From assembly GCF_001316265.1 (NCBI RefSeq), contig NZ_BBDN01000004.1:124001-188000 (forward strand): a DNA stretch of 64,000 nt, read 5' to 3'. Position 1 is the first letter of the stretch. Every line of letters starts with the position of its first letter. A program made the position numbers and the translations under genes. Origin of the DNA: Vulcanisaeta sp. JCM 16159 (GTDB lineage: Archaea > Thermoproteota > Thermoprotei > Thermoproteales > Thermocladiaceae). Below the pieces are notes generated by a model. The model ran no database searches, had not been told where the DNA came from, and saw only the letters and a program-made list of their open reading frames with translations. Below, in pieces: positions 17,358 through 62,604 of this stretch.

Positions 17358-18386
17358 TTACATACTCTGATTATTAACCTTCATCACAAATCCATTGTCC
17401 ACAAGCCTCCTGAGTAGCTTCGTAACCTCACCATCACTTATTGACCTACCCTCCCTCAACTCAAGATACCTCTTAACCTCAGACCAGGTGGCGCCCTGCT
17501 TAAGAACGTTAATTACTAGTACATACCTTCTCGAGCCCATGGTCCTAACGAAGTTGCAAAACTCCTCTTCAACAATACCCGAGGCTATGTTCACGGTTTT
17601 ATCAAGAGCCTCAGGCCTTGGGTTGTTGATGTACGTAAGGCCAAATAGCGATAACCAACCGACAATACCGTTCAGTTCATCCACAGCCCTCTCAATCATA
17701 TCCTCGCCAATGGAAACCCCCGCCTTACTAAACCCACGCCTTAAGAAGTCCAGTGATTGCTCACGTGTGAATGGCTTTAACTCTATCACCTTCATGTATC
17801 TGCCATACAGTGGTGAATCAGGATCATTAACTCTCAGGTAATTATAGAGCATGCCAATCTTCGACCCAGCAAATACGAAGGATATGTTCCTCAGATTATC
17901 ATACACGTAGGCAAATACCGGTAACAAATTGAAACCCTCATCTTACTCAATTCCTGCACCTCATCAATTATCACAACCAAGTGCTTACTCTCTGATGATG
18001 CCCAGTCATTAAGGGCATCGAACAATGATGGTATTGATACCTCCCTAGCCAATCCGCTGAACTCAATGGTAAGGCACATTATTGATAAACCCTAACCCTA
18101 CTTAAGAAATCAATCAACCGTCTGCTAATTGGTAATAATTGACTCAAGGACTTCGCAAGCTCACTTAGGAAGTCCCTAATTGTCATGTAGCTCATGCCCT
18201 CAAAACTCCTCGCATCAATGTATACCCTGACCATATCCTTTGTGGCGGCCTTAACAAGCGATGTTTTACCAACACGCCTAAATCCAACCACCAATGTGAC
18301 CGCCCTATTTAATGCCGAAAATCTCAATTGCCTAATCTCAGCTTCCCTATCATACAGCTCACTTGGGTCTTCAGCTGGCCGGTCGA
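17358..18386 (-). CDS. Archaeal AAA+ ATPase, PF01637 type, copy 1 (frame broken twice or more)
   Basis: Predicted signal-transduction-type NTPase of a family expanded in archaea. Walker A is GFRRVGKTS and Walker B with arginine-finger region is VVIIDEVQEL; the C-terminal ~90 residues form a winged helix (REGRSISDGEVTKLLRRLVDNGFV). Breaks lie near 18080 and 17930. The frame is open upstream to a TAG in the palindrome, giving FLDRPAEDPSELYDRE before the visible domain, but no ordinary start codon fits, so the start is unresolved. Directly preceded by a double palindrome, suggesting autoregulation. Paralog at 58455-59542. Confidence 0.85.
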
Positions 18387-18388
18387 GA

Positions 18389-18427
18389 AACTACATACCT
18401 ATGTAGTAACTACATAGGTATGTAGTT
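18389..18427. promoter_or_regulatory. Double palindromic operator at the ATPase promoter
   Basis: Two 18-base units, ACTACATACCTATGTAGT (18390-18407) and ACTACATAGGTATGTAGT (18409-18426), are separated by one A. Each is itself a palindrome around CC/GG, and each is the reverse complement of the other, so the whole 39-base block is one palindrome. On the minus strand a TATA-like TTTATAAC (18426-18433) touches its upstream edge, and the ATPase frame begins at its other edge. This layout fits a repressor site covering the transcription start. Confidence 0.8.
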
Positions 18428-26428: not shown

Positions 26429-27839
26429 GATCACAGGCAGGGAGGCTGAGGGCACAAGGTGGGACCTCGTAGTCATCGGCTCAGGAACCGCGGGTGCTGA
26501 CGCCGCCGTGCGTGCTGCACAATTGGGACTTAAGGTCCTACTCATAGAGAGGAATAGGGATAGGCCTGGCGGGACTTGCGTAAATGTTGGTTGTGTGCCA
26601 ACGAAGAAGTTGTTATATTTAGCTGATCATTACCATGAACTAAGTAAGTACTTAGTCAATGAAGGCTTGATCATCGATGCAAAGTTAGACGTGAAGGCTA
26701 TGTTTAGGGCTAAGGATCAGTTAATCAGTCAGATAATTGCTTGGTATACATTTAGGGTATTTCCGAGTTGGGGTATTAAGATGCTATTTGGCGAGGCTCG
26801 GTTGGCATCGCCAAACTCCGTTAAGGTTGGAGATTCAGTGATTGAGACCAAGAATGTGTTAATAGCGACTGGCTCTAGGCCTAAGGTGCCGCCAATAAGG
26901 GGTGTGGAGGAGGGATTGAGGAGGGGCTTCGTTATAACTAGTGATGATTTCTTCTCCCTTGATTCAATACCTGATAGTATATTGATCATAGGTGGTGGGG
27001 CAATAGGTGTTGAGTTAGGGACGCTATTGCATAAGCTTGGTTCTAAGGTCATTATTGTCGAGATCATGGATAGATTATTACCAACATTTGCAGACGCTGA
27101 ATTAGGTAATTATCTTGCCAATAGGGTCATGAGGGAGATGTACGGGGTCGACGTTAGAGTAGGTACATCCGTAACAGAGGTAGACCCTGATAATAGGCTT
27201 GTTCGTTTATCGAGTGGTGAGGCAGTTAAGGTTGACAAGGTCCTGGTTGCTGTTGGGAGGGTGCCGAATACCGAGGGACTTAATCTTGAGGGTGTCGGTG
27301 TTGAGGTTAAGAATGGCGCCATCATGGTCGATGACCACTCCAGGACTAACGTACCAAGCATCTACGCAGCTGGTGATGTGACTGGTAAGTATATGCTGGC
27401 CAGTGTAGCTAAGGTTCAGGGTATTGTGGCTGCCGAGAACGTGGCAGGCATAAACTCAAGGATTGATTATAACCTGGTGCCCATGGTTGTTTTCTCAGAC
27501 CCTGAGGTGGCCTCTGTCGGTATTGCGGCAAGCAAGGATGATCCCAAGTACATGGTTACTAAGATGCCGAATACCATAAACTATAGGGCTATTGCATATA
27601 ATAAGCCTTATGGCTGGACAAAGATTGTAATTGAGAGAGGTAGTAAGAGGGTTGTTGGTTTTCACATGATTGGCCCATGGGCATCCGAAATCGTTAACAC
27701 GGCCGTAATAGCCATTAAGAATGGATTAACACTTGATGAAGTAAAGGAACTCGTATTCTCACACCCTGTTTTCACAGAACTTCTTATAGATGCCATGGAA
27801 CTAGCCTCAGGGAGTAATGTATACTTACCCAAGAGGTAA
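26418..27839 (+). CDS. Class I pyridine nucleotide-disulfide oxidoreductase (Lpd/MerA-like)
   Basis: 473 residues, uninterrupted. FAD motif VVIGSGTAGADAAV, redox disulfide GGTCVNVGCVPTKK, NAD(P) motif LIIGGGAIGVELG, second FAD motif IYAAGDV, and the C-terminal dimerisation domain ending with HPVFTE, whose His-Glu pair assists the disulfide. No MerA heavy-metal N-terminal domain, and no lipoyl-complex genes nearby, so it probably reduces the C_GCAxxG_C_C partner or a small disulfide. ATG at 26418 within the preceding gene. Confidence 0.9.
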   Translation: MSVEITGREAEGTRWDLVVIGSGTAGADAAVRAAQLGLKVLLIERNRDRPGGTCVNVGCVPTKKLLYLADHYHELSKYLVNEGLIIDAKLDVKAMFRAKDQLISQIIAWYTFRVFPSWGIKMLFGEARLASPNSVKVGDSVIETKNVLIATGSRPKVPPIRGVEEGLRRGFVITSDDFFSLDSIPDSILIIGGGAIGVELGTLLHKLGSKVIIVEIMDRLLPTFADAELGNYLANRVMREMYGVDVRVGTSVTEVDPDNRLVRLSSGEAVKVDKVLVAVGRVPNTEGLNLEGVGVEVKNGAIMVDDHSRTNVPSIYAAGDVTGKYMLASVAKVQGIVAAENVAGINSRIDYNLVPMVVFSDPEVASVGIAASKDDPKYMVTKMPNTINYRAIAYNKPYGWTKIVIERGSKRVVGFHMIGPWASEIVNTAVIAIKNGLTLDEVKELVFSHPVFTELLIDAMELASGSNVYLPKR

Positions 27840-56575: not shown

Positions 56576-58343
56576 ATGTCGGTTCCCCAAAAGTACAGAG
56601 GCAGACCCATTGAGGAATTGATCTCGGCCGGTTATTATGACCCTGAGACCAGGACCGTCCACGCCATCACCGGCACAGAGCTTCATGTACGTAGCCGTGA
56701 CTGGCAGCTTGAGGGTCCACTACGTATGCTCTTCCATGTGCTTGATCCCGCGGTTGCTAAGGACCCAAAGAACCTAGTTGTCTATGGTGGTACGGGTAAG
56801 GCTGCTCGCTCGTGGGATGACTTCGAGGCTATCGTGGATTCCCTACTCACGATGGATAGCGAGGACACACTGGTGATACAGAGCGGCCAGCCCGTGGCCA
56901 TTTGGAGACTCAGCAAGCACACACCGAGGGTCTTAATGAGCAATGCCATGCTAGTACCCAAGTGGGCCGACTGGAAGATATTCTGGGAACTCGAGGCCAA
57001 GGGATTGATAAGCTTCCACCAGATGACGGCCGGTTGTTGGGCATACATTGGTACCCAGGGCATTCTCCAGGGGACCTATGAAACAATTGGGGCAGCCGCA
57101 GATAGGCACTTCGGCGGCTCGCTAGAGGGTAAGTTAGTGGTTAGTGCAGGGCTTGGCAACATGGGTGGTGCGCAGCCACTGGCCATCAAGATGCTTGGTG
57201 GCGTGGCCCTGATAGCGGATGTTGATAAGAGGATGATTCAGAGGATGATAGACACAGGCTACCTTGATACGTGGACGGATAGTCTGGACAAGGCCGTAGA
57301 CATGGCACTCGACGCCAAGGAGAGGAGACAGGCAACAAGCATTGGTGTTCTCGCTAATGCCGTGGATCTCCTCGAGAAATTGGTTAAGGAGAATATAGTC
57401 CCCGACATACTCACAGACCAGACGCCCGCTCACGATCCATTGTCCTATGTACCCAGGGATTTACCGTGGAACAGGCAGAGCAATTAAGGAAGAGCGATCC
57501 GGAGAAGTACATACTATTGGCTAAGGAGACTATGAAGAAGCACGTGCAATTAATGCTCCAGTTACAGGCTAGGGGCGCCGTAACCTTCGAGTACGGCAAC
57601 AACCTCAGGAAGCAGGCATATGATGCCGGCGTCGAGGATGCATTCAAGATACCCGGTCAAATGGAGTATATGAGACCATTGTTTGAGGAGGGCCGTGGAC
57701 CATTCAGGTGGACAAGCCTAGTCGGTGATCCAAACGACATATACAAACTTGATGACGTATTAATAACATTGTTCGAGAAGAAGAACCCAAGACTTGTTAG
57801 GTGGATTAGGAATGCTCATCAGTACGTGAAGTTCCAGGGACTACCTGCTAGAGTCGTTTACCTAGGCTATGGAGAGAGGGCACTATTTGGTAAGATCGTT
57901 AGTGAGATGGTTAGGAAGGGCGAGCTGAGTGGGCCAATATGGTTCGGCAGAGACCACCTGGACAGTGGTTCTGTTGCGTCGCCTATAGGGAGACTGAGGG
58001 CATGCTTGACGGCTCAGACGCAATCGGGGACTGGCCAATACTGAACTACGCGCTAAACACAGCCGCTGGCGCAACCTGGACTTGCTTCCACCATGGCGGT
58101 GGTACGGGCATCGGCTTTAGTATTCATGCTGGCTTTGGCATGGTTGTTGATGGTACTGAGCTTGCCGAGGAGAAGGCCCTTAGGGTATTCACTGTTGATC
58201 CTGGCTCTGGTGTTGTTAGGCATGCCCACGCCGGCTACCCGAAGTCCCTAATGGTTGCTAGGGAGAGGGGTGTTAGGATACCAATCATTGATAAGCTTGA
58301 GGAGAAGAGTAGGCGTGTGATTGAGGAGGCGTATAGAGGGTAG
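56576..58343 (+). CDS. hutU: Urocanate hydratase (frame broken twice)
   Basis: Second step of histidine catabolism: urocanate to imidazolonepropionate with tightly bound [35 protein letters not shown] and the Rossmann loop [14 protein letters not shown] are diagnostic; [16 protein letters not shown] near the end is also conserved. Missing bases near 57467 (one A) and 57987. About 590 residues. An extra base near the stop would extend it to 58425 ([19 protein letters not shown]), so the C-terminus is uncertain. hutI and hutH lie ~18 and ~9 kb away. Confidence 0.93.
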
Positions 58344-58454: not shown

Positions 58455-59542
58455 TTAAACCTGGCTGAATTTCATCCTTACTATTGGGTCTACTATCTCG
58501 TATTCACCGTGAGAGACCCTACTTATTATGTTCATTTTCATGAGGTTGTTTAATACTCTTTCGATTTCGCCTGGTGCAACATACTTATTGAGTCTTAGTG
58601 TTATGTATTCCCTAATTTCGTTAAATCGCTTCTTACCCCTGGCTATTGCCTCAAGTACTAATCCATAGTACGTGGATCTACCCAATAATGACCTTAGTTC
58701 ATCATTAACGAGTTGCATGGCTCTCCTATATATTTCGTTGATGTTTGTTATTCCGCGTATCCTGCGTTGCCGTAGTACGTTAACCAACCAACAATGCCGT
58801 TAAGCTTATCGACAGCATCAAGTATTTCGTTCATTGTTATCTCGATTCCGTATTGCCTAAAGCCTGTTATTAGGAATTGAATTGATGCGTCTTTATTGAA
58901 TGGGGCTATTGTTAATTCATCGATGAATCTTCCATAAAGTGGTGACTTGGGGTTTTCGAGCCCTAGGAAGTCGTGTAGTACTCCAACTTCGGAGCCTGTT
59001 AATATCACCTTAATATTGCTTAGGTTATCGTATGTATAGGCAAGTATTTGTGTGAGGTCGACCTTGCCAAACCCCTTTAACATCCTAAGTATTTGGGCCT
59101 CGTCTATCGCTACTACTAATTGGTCTAAGTTTTTGGATAAGGCATTTAGTAAGTCTGTCAAGTAAACGCTCCTCCAATCAACCTCAATATTAAGTTCAAT
59201 GCCGCTACCGAATATGTTTATGCCTCGAATAATCTTCGCGATATTCCTAATGGTGTTCTCAAGGCGCCACTTAATGGATAACTCAGTTAGGCAATTCGAT
59301 ATTAATTGGTAGAACCTTCTTTTCGTGAAGTCATTCTCAAGAGCCCTAGCGTCAATGTAGCAATACGGTATGTTTGCTTCATTTAGGGCGACCCTAAGTA
59401 CCGATGTCTTGCCGACACGCCTAATTCCGTATATTGCGAGGAACCTTGACCTACCCCTTATGAAATTTAGGATACTATCCACCTCGTTGTCTCTTCCGAA
59501 GAGGTCCTCCCTCCTCGTTTTTGGCTCTATATCGAATAACAT
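58455..59542 (-). CDS. Archaeal AAA+ ATPase, PF01637 type, copy 2 (frame broken once)
   Basis: About 362 residues. Begins MLFDIEPKTRREDLFGRDNEV, the family's typical start; Walker A GIRRVGKTS, Walker B VVAIDEAQIL, sensor-like VILTGSEVG, then the C-terminal winged helix (DUF234-like) ending EIVDPIVRMKFSQV. Break near 58755, one missing base. Role unknown; relatives are thought to be regulators or mobile-element-like. It has a perfect palindrome between its TATA box and start codon, as does the paralog at 17358-18386. Confidence 0.88.
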
Positions 59543-59550
59543 GGAATACT

Positions 59551-59577
59551 CACCCCTGTGTATTATACACAGGGGTG
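59551..59577. promoter_or_regulatory. Palindromic operator at the second ATPase promoter
   Basis: Perfect 13-base arms CACCCCTGTGTAT and ATACACAGGGGTG around one T. On the minus strand a TATA-like ATTTAAG (59579-59585) lies directly upstream, and the ATPase ATG (59542) is 9 bases downstream. So the site covers the expected transcription start and would block it when bound. Confidence 0.8.
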
Positions 59578-59644
59578 CTTAAATCCCTGACTTAAATGGA
59601 TCAGTTTTAAATATCCTCATTTAGTACTACCTTGGTGCAGGTAG

Positions 59645-61377: not shown

Positions 61378-62604
61378 ATGGTATTCCCACTGGATAGTCT
61401 CCAGGACTATCAATTAATGTTTAAGCCGGAGCATGAAATGCTTAGGAAGAGCGTTAGGGAGTTTCTCGAGAGGGAGGTGGCGCCGCATGCGCTTGAGTTT
61501 GATGATAGGGATGAGGTACCCAGGGAAATACTGAGGAAGCTGGGTGAGCAGGGCTTATGGGGCATTGGGATTGACGAGAGCCTTGGCGGGCAAGGCGCGA
61601 TACCGTATCTGCCGTGATATTAATGGAGGAGTTGAGCAGGGTAGCACCGCCCTTGGCCGTTATCCGCGGTACCAATGACTTGTTCGTGACACCATTACTC
61701 CTATTTGGTAGTGATGAGTTGAAGAGGAAGTATGTACCGCCAATAGCCAGGGGTGAGGCCTTTGGTGCTCATGCCATGACGGAGCCATGCTGTGGATCGG
61801 ATGTTGCGGGCATTCAGACGAGGGCTGTTAAGAAGGGTGATAGGTGGGTTATTAATGGTAGGAAGATCTTCATTAGTAATGCTGACATTGCTGACTACAT
61901 CATGGTCTTCGCAAGGACTAGTGAGCCGCAGCCCAATAGGCGTTGGTTTGGAATAACAGCTTCATTGTTGAGAAGGGGACGCCAGGCCTCAAGATTGGTG
62001 CTAAATTCGAGAAGAGGGGTTTGAGGGGTAGCCATGCAATGGAGGTTATTTTTGATGATGTCGAGGTTCCTGATGCGAATAGGGTTGGTGAGGTTGGCAT
62101 GGGCTTCATAATAGCCATGGAGACTTACGACAGGACCAGGGTTGGAGTTGCGGCCCAGGCACTCGGCATGGCGCAGGCGCCTTTGAGAAGGCATTCCAGT
62201 ACTCACTGCAGCGTACGGCCTTTGGTCAGTACCTGGCTAGCTTCGAGGCTATTCAATTCAGCCTTGCCGAGATGATGGCGGAGTTGATGACCGCCAGGTA
62301 CCTGGTATACCTGGCCGCATACTTGGCTGACCAGGGTAGGGAGGAGTTCAAGTACGTGGCTAGTTTAGCGAAGTTCTACACCACGGAGGTTGCCGAGAAG
62401 ATAGTGTCCAAGGCTATCGATGTACATGGAGGCGTCGGCGTCATCCATGAGACTGGCATTGAGAGGTTCCTTAGGGATGTTAAGATAACGGAGATTTACG
62501 AGGGCGCGAACAACATTCAGAGACTTGTGGCCTTTAGGCAGTTGGTGAGGACTCTGATGAAGAAGGGCATTGTAAGTCAAGATATTGCCAAGTCAATAAC
62601 CTAA
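61378..62604 (+). CDS. Acyl-CoA dehydrogenase (frame broken three times or more)
   Basis: FAD enzyme of beta-oxidation. N-terminal helices (HEMLRKSVREFLEREVAPHA), middle motif AMTEPCCGSDVAG, then GLRGSHAMEVIFDDVEVP, and the C-terminal domain with the catalytic Glu in ITEIYEGANNIQR. Breaks near 61608, 61962 and 62180. About 410 residues. It could act on acyl-CoA made by the synthetase at 28001-29741. Its 3' end overlaps the facing nitrilase gene by 4 bases. Confidence 0.9.

Follow-up and report, generated by a model that had tools for sequence, protein, structure and literature searches.

A perfect palindrome of 27 bp, CACCCCTGTGTAT-T-ATACACAGGGGTG, lies at 59551-59577 of the window (the whole 64-kb stretch of DNA analysed), all 13 bases of one arm being complementary to the 13 of the other around a single central base. 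An 8-nt gap separates it from the start codon (ATG at 59542, minus strand) of a PF01637 ATPase gene, and a TTTAA box (59579-59583) is directly upstream of it. The original prediction, that arms of 13 bases around one base stand between the TATA box and a PF01637 start codon, thus describes the site correctly. The features of this locus, and of a sister locus at 18.4 kb, are as follows.

59551..59577, no strand assigned: perfect palindrome of 27 bp (13+1+13), forming the inner part of two putative operator units set head to head (sequence, simulation, orthologue conservation)
59547..59563, minus strand: start-proximal putative operator unit ATACACAGGGGTGAGTA, in minus-strand letters (two-unit fit of orthologues)
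59565..59581, minus strand: start-distal putative operator unit TAAGCACCCCTGTGTAT, in minus-strand letters, abutting and overlapping the TATA box (two-unit fit; family TATA/BRE profile)
59579..59583, minus strand: TATA-like box, TTTAA within GGGATTTAAGC (sequence; family-wide positional profile)
58748..59542, minus strand: PF01637 (ATPase_2) AAA+ ATPase, SSO1545-like, N-terminal 264 aa up to a frame break (profile match, homology)
58455..58787, minus strand: winged-helix C terminus of this ATPase, continued in the next frame; PF21100-like but below cut-off (profile; orthologue L185)
58542..58577, minus strand: predicted recognition helix A-P-G-E-I-E-R-V-L-N-N-L, with A-P-G at alignment positions 323-325 (structure model of L185, covariation)
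18389..18427, no strand assigned: putative sister operator, a 39-bp perfect palindrome ACTACATACCTATGTAGT-T-ACTACATAGGTATGTAGT made of two units 19 bp apart (sequence, two-unit fit)
17358..18419, minus strand: second ATPase of the subfamily, interrupted (profile match, alignment)

The ATPase open reading frame matches PF01637 over residues 15-249 (E = 6e-17; 62.6 bits vs a curated cut-off of 33.2). Its frame is broken near 58.76 kb, leaving the AAA part at 58748-59542 and the winged helix at 58455-58787, while the orthologue L185 is a single intact open frame of 363 aa. The break is likely to be a sequencing or assembly error, because many genes in the same assembly are broken alike. Neighbouring long genes at 56576-58343 and 61378-62604, which look like a urocanate hydratase and an acyl-CoA dehydrogenase, are split into overlapping frames, indicating indel errors in this assembly (63% completeness). 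A winged helix with a recognition helix is recognizable in the C-terminal part from its sub-threshold likeness to PF21100 and from the L185 structure model. This model, made from a single sequence, is poor for the whole protein and confident for the winged helix alone, in which helices at 308-319 and 325-337 and a two-strand wing are predicted with pLDDT of 70-86. The nearest named relatives of the window genome are V. distributa JCM 11217 (93% protein identity) and JCM 11216 (91%).

The window protein is homologous to the members of a subfamily profile (A1) and belongs, with all the operator-bearing genes described below, to the SSO1545-like subfamily of PF01637, whose proteins consist of an AAA+ domain followed by a C-terminal winged helix. 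The subfamily includes PDB entries 2FNA (SSO1545 itself) and 2QEN (a euryarchaeal member). Profile A1 covers residues 1-358 of 2FNA (E = 4.5e-120) and 1-356 of 2QEN (E = 5e-99), C-terminal domain included, so that the solved proteins share both sequence family and AAA+/winged-helix layout with the window protein. Their annotations go no further than 'conserved hypothetical protein' and 'Walker-type ATPase', and the literature searched yielded no operator, DNA target or function for them. Matches to A1 occurred in 99 of 200 sampled Thermoproteota genomes and, in a separate count, in 30 of 31 genomes of one family; phage matches to the subfamily numbered zero. Outside Thermoproteota the search for the operator led to one weak bacterial plasmid homologue, from Sulfurimonas, without the paired element. 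This distant homologue (L302; Sulfurimonas paralvinellae plasmid NZ_CP041407.1) lies near an integrase and has one small inverted repeat, TCAATACTTTTTATTGA, upstream.

The 27-bp palindrome is real and not a product of chance. Palindromes with arms of at least 13 bp occur twice in the 64-kb window (arms of 19 bp at 18389 and of 13 bp at 59551), both upstream of PF01637 ATPases, and none occurred in 300 windows simulated with a first-order Markov model. The palindrome at 18389 is composed of two ACTACATA-SS-TATGTAGT units 19 bp apart. The two sites had been said to differ wholly in sequence while sharing one design; their letters do differ, and both turn out to be pairs of the same kind of unit. 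In the second ATPase gene (17358-18419) a TAG directly follows the aligned ATG and there are several frameshifts, attributable to decay or to sequencing error; its 39-bp operator is still perfect. Its recognition helix, ISDGEVTKLL, has Asp at position 324, as predicted from its ACT half-site by the code described below.

The element of the window gene is kept in the orthologues of five other Vulcanisaeta genomes, whose proteins are 74 to 93% identical to that of the window, and the site has been retained while the flanking DNA has diverged. In Vulcanisaeta sp. JCM 14467 (L083/L187; protein identity 74-75%) all 27 bases are identical and the palindrome is perfect with arms of 17 bp. Elsewhere there is one mismatch in two orthologues, two in L081 and small indels in L186. 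The JCM 14467 orthologue L083 reveals the full head-to-head form, TAAACACCCCTGTGTAT-A-ATACACAGGGGTGTTTA, in which ATACACAGGGGTGTTTA is the start-proximal unit (fit 18.3, inverted match 17/17), and it is on this orthologue that the locus was found to fit the pattern of two ~17-bp units between TATA box and start codon at a spacing of 17-20 bp.

Allowing up to three mismatches, the 27-bp site was present in 6 of 41 related genomes, once in each, and in five of the six it precedes the orthologue of the window ATPase. In the sixth (G023, L164, C53:19800-21800) the promoter and approximately the first 11 codons are left and the ATPase is gone. The ATPase gene has also been lost from G005 (L350, C33 near 27520-27554), where approximately the first 11 codons remain behind an operator, TAAACACCCCTGAGT-GCTGT-ACTCAGGGGTGTTTA, carrying the same letter change in both arms. 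Further bound promoters were sought in whole genomes with the window operator alone. A regulon of this operator was rejected, the 27-bp site being unique in each genome. Single-unit matches (two mismatches) were commoner than those of a reversed control; they are taken as background because they are equally frequent in two related genomes whose best homologue is < 40% identical.

The palindrome is a special case of a wider two-unit rule, which emerged from the upstream regions of homologues 38 to 93% identical to the window protein (~240 regions from close to 100 genomes). The family promoter runs from a TATA box through a unit of ~17-18 bp, a junction of 1-2 bp (the sequence across it is often AGT-W-ACT) and a second unit to the start codon, the two units lying 17-20 bp apart. 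The units are imperfect inverted repeats whose core is often rich in G and whose sequence differs between paralogues; examples are ACTTCTAGGGGTAGAAGT twice, AGTATCAGGGGTGATAC twice, AGTTCCGGTGCGGAACT twice, and ACTGGTAGTACTACCAGT with ACTGGTGGTGGTACCAGT. At L108, L112, L116 and L118 (G002 and G008) the G-runs of the operator core are longer than in relatives (GGGGGGG), probably through homopolymer length errors. Among 103 well-fitted non-redundant genes the units were arranged in tandem in 78 and head to head in 8, with 17 either or ambiguous, and spacing was 19 bp in 51 and 18 bp in 25. The perfect palindrome, first taken for the common design, is therefore a minority form; perfect palindromes with 13-bp arms were found in just 8 of 139 upstream regions, and paired units replace them as the rule. 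One G+C-rich palindrome with 13-bp arms, CGCCCCGTGGGGT-AG-ACCCCACGGGGCG, occurs in a G+C-rich stretch of G007 (L166:4201-4228) that does not precede an ATPase.

The paired units are specific to the subfamily. Strong direct or inverted repeats were detected in 75% of 139 non-redundant ATPase upstream regions vs 1.4% of those of 417 other genes of G007, a complete Vulcanisaeta genome, and 0.1% of shuffled sequence. The rule thus survives the comparison that had been suggested for it, of whether palindromes are equally common before other genes. Autocorrelation of base identity peaked at a lag of 19 (0.467 vs 0.275 in controls). A two-unit score of at least 12 was reached by 102 of 151 subfamily genes vs 7 of the 417 other genes, and by 0 of 26 high-scoring PF01637 genes outside the subfamily (best score 8.2). 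The proposal that each PF01637 ATPase has a private operator accordingly holds for the SSO1545-like subfamily and was rejected for PF01637 as a whole, since the top-scoring members outside the subfamily are without the element. A gene-blind scan of 400 kb of G007 gave a single site with a score of at least 16, situated at the start of a family member (G007:244005-244961).

Variation in the units follows variation in the winged helix of the adjacent gene. In 64 ATPases of < 60% identity, each of the 362 protein positions was set against the bases of the half-site, numbered from its outer edge towards the core. Position 324 was the best of the 362 for half-site base 2 (z = 12.0; next column 5.2), position 325 was the best for base 5 (8.3; next 7.6, at position 323) and position 323 was second for base 4. 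In the structure model, these three positions form the start of the recognition helix (predicted helix 3, 325-337). Across 166 genes, base 2 was C with Asp at position 324 (94/101), G with Asn (17/17) or Lys (7/9) and T with Ala (3/3); base 5 was G with Lys at position 325 (20/24) and C with Ser (40/51). Asp 324 occurs in most of the family, hence base 2 carries limited information, and few genes populate the part of the code to which the window gene belongs (Pro/Leu at 324, base T). High scores in single tests were also obtained for some columns of the AAA domain (e.g. 148 for base 4), indicating residual phylogeny, with ancestry incompletely removed.

Ancestry was addressed in three further comparisons. 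With a tree built from the AAA domain only, independent pairs differing at position 324 comprised 12 concordant, none reversed and 5 uninformative, and pairs picked by C vs G in the DNA comprised 9 concordant, none reversed and 2 uninformative (concordance being read by eye from the pair list). In 4,940 pairs with AAA identity < 42%, operator similarity correlated with the helix start at r = 0.23, vs 0.03 with the AAA domain and 0.05 with the rest of the winged helix. Reassigning operators at random between the paralogues within each genome (131 genes in 43 genomes) reproduced the observed link in 0 of 2000 shuffles (z = 11.2-11.7).

The code was first spotted by eye and then tried on newly fetched Sulfolobaceae genes, 39 of which are < 70% identical to any earlier gene; the register of the half-site was chosen blind to C or G. 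In this held-out set Asp went with C in 26 of 28 genes and Asn with G in 3/3, while base 4 was G in 10/10 genes with Asp-Asp-Lys and in 0/28 of all others. Cut to 60% identity the set contains just 14 genes (Asp-C 9/10, Asn-G 1/1), so fewer independent cases support the code than the raw counts suggest. That operator and winged helix co-evolve, as had been supposed, is supported by this covariation, drawn from ~240 upstream regions and mapping to the recognition helix.

Computation establishes the architecture, specificity and conservation of the paired units and their covariation with residues 323-325, and these comparisons strongly suggest that each promoter is bound by the winged helix of its own ATPase. 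With a probability of roughly 0.8, the palindrome at 59551 is an operator of the adjacent gene through which that ATPase acts as an autorepressor kept apart from its paralogues. Each half-unit would be contacted by a single recognition helix through its N-terminal end (positions 323-325). The bound pair would block TBP/TFB or RNA polymerase, repressing the gene, and the strength of binding would depend on the oligomeric state, as governed by the AAA+ module. Since paralogues differ in unit letters and recognition-helix residues, each would control its own gene alone, in genomes with up to a dozen or more of them. The stoichiometry, nucleotide control and completeness of insulation that this scheme entails are presumptive.

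Repression is suggested by where the units lie. In the family-wide base profile, unit 1 begins at the end of the TATA box and is preceded by an A-rich BRE-like stretch (-10 to -8) and a TTTWTA box (-6 to -1). Applying the usual archaeal TATA-to-start distance places the transcription start near the junction between the units, so the pair, which stretches from TATA box to start codon across the expected start of transcription, covers the region that polymerase must occupy. The ATPase might instead bind its own promoter as an activator, or both activate and repress according to nucleotide state, as AAA+/STAND regulators such as MalT are activators of transcription. However, binding downstream of the TATA box and before the start codon usually prevents initiation in archaea, and known archaeal activators mostly bind upstream of BRE; activation is therefore an unlikely reading, if one to be taken seriously.

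Autoregulation is deduced from sequence and archaea are rich in winged helix-turn-helix regulators, so the units might be operators for other dedicated transcription factors, different for each ATPase, with the ATPase's winged helix serving another role. A separate regulator, however, would not produce the covariation of operator letters with the ATPase's own recognition helix, which is seen both across clades and within genomes, making this explanation improbable. Still less credible is an RNA element, in which the inverted repeats would form hairpins in the 5' UTR controlling translation or stability. The start-proximal unit may indeed be transcribed, ending as it does at the start codon, but unit 1 abuts the TATA box and is mostly upstream of the expected transcription start, yet shares its sequence with unit 2, and the letters covary with the recognition residues of the winged helix, not just with one another inside the stems. 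The patchy, expanded distribution of the family and the two loci that lost the gene and kept the promoter (L164, L350) might suggest the ends or insertion targets of a mobile element accompanying a mobile ATPase gene, a notion dismissed since each genome has a single copy of the element, the 3' end of the gene lacks a further one, and the register with TATA box and start codon is fixed.

Extended from the window gene, autorepression through a private operator would make this a Thermoproteota-wide AAA+ family with a one-to-one decodable address, in which residues 323-325 specify a two-unit operator found solely before the protein's own gene and the self-regulating circuits of one genome, numbering up to a dozen or more, are insulated from one another; on balance we lean towards this generalization. 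SSO1545-type ATPases are expanded in many Thermoproteota and have two solved structures without a stated function. The operators provide a concrete handle on what these proteins bind and show how a large paralogue family could avoid crosstalk. A residue-to-base code of such simplicity can be tested on a single mutant protein and a single mutant promoter, and the family may be a natural source of orthogonal pairs of regulator and operator from hyperthermophiles.

CI repressors of lambdoid phages, each with its own operator and recognition helix, regulate their own promoters and ignore those of relatives. They are alike in working to the system proposed here and are not homologous to it; unlike CI, the proteins here are AAA+ ATPases with a winged helix, present as many paralogues in one archaeal genome, with a two-unit operator running from TATA box to start codon. 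In the LacI- and CRP-type families, too, natural variation reveals a code linking residues to bases. Those proteins mostly control other genes, whereas the sole recognised site seen for the window operator precedes the ATPase itself. Orc1/Cdc6 combines AAA+ with a winged helix contacting dyad elements that have a G-rich string; the likeness is an analogy only, the element here being a promoter operator with a private sequence. IniR of mycobacteria, whose AAA+ domain is predicted to be SSO1545-like, binds DNA and regulates a promoter (PMC5760070). It differs in having only 15% identity in the AAA domain and a LuxR-like DNA-binding domain rather than the winged helix of the subfamily (PMC5760070). 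No description of these operators was found in the open-licence literature searched, although earlier notice in subscription journals is possible.

In a side branch from Sulfolobaceae (L336-L340) the recognition helix has the form DW(S/N/V)FxH, and the start is preceded by a conserved element resembling CTATATTAGTWACTAATATGG(C)TAT. This element fits the two-unit design poorly and is possibly a variant operator.
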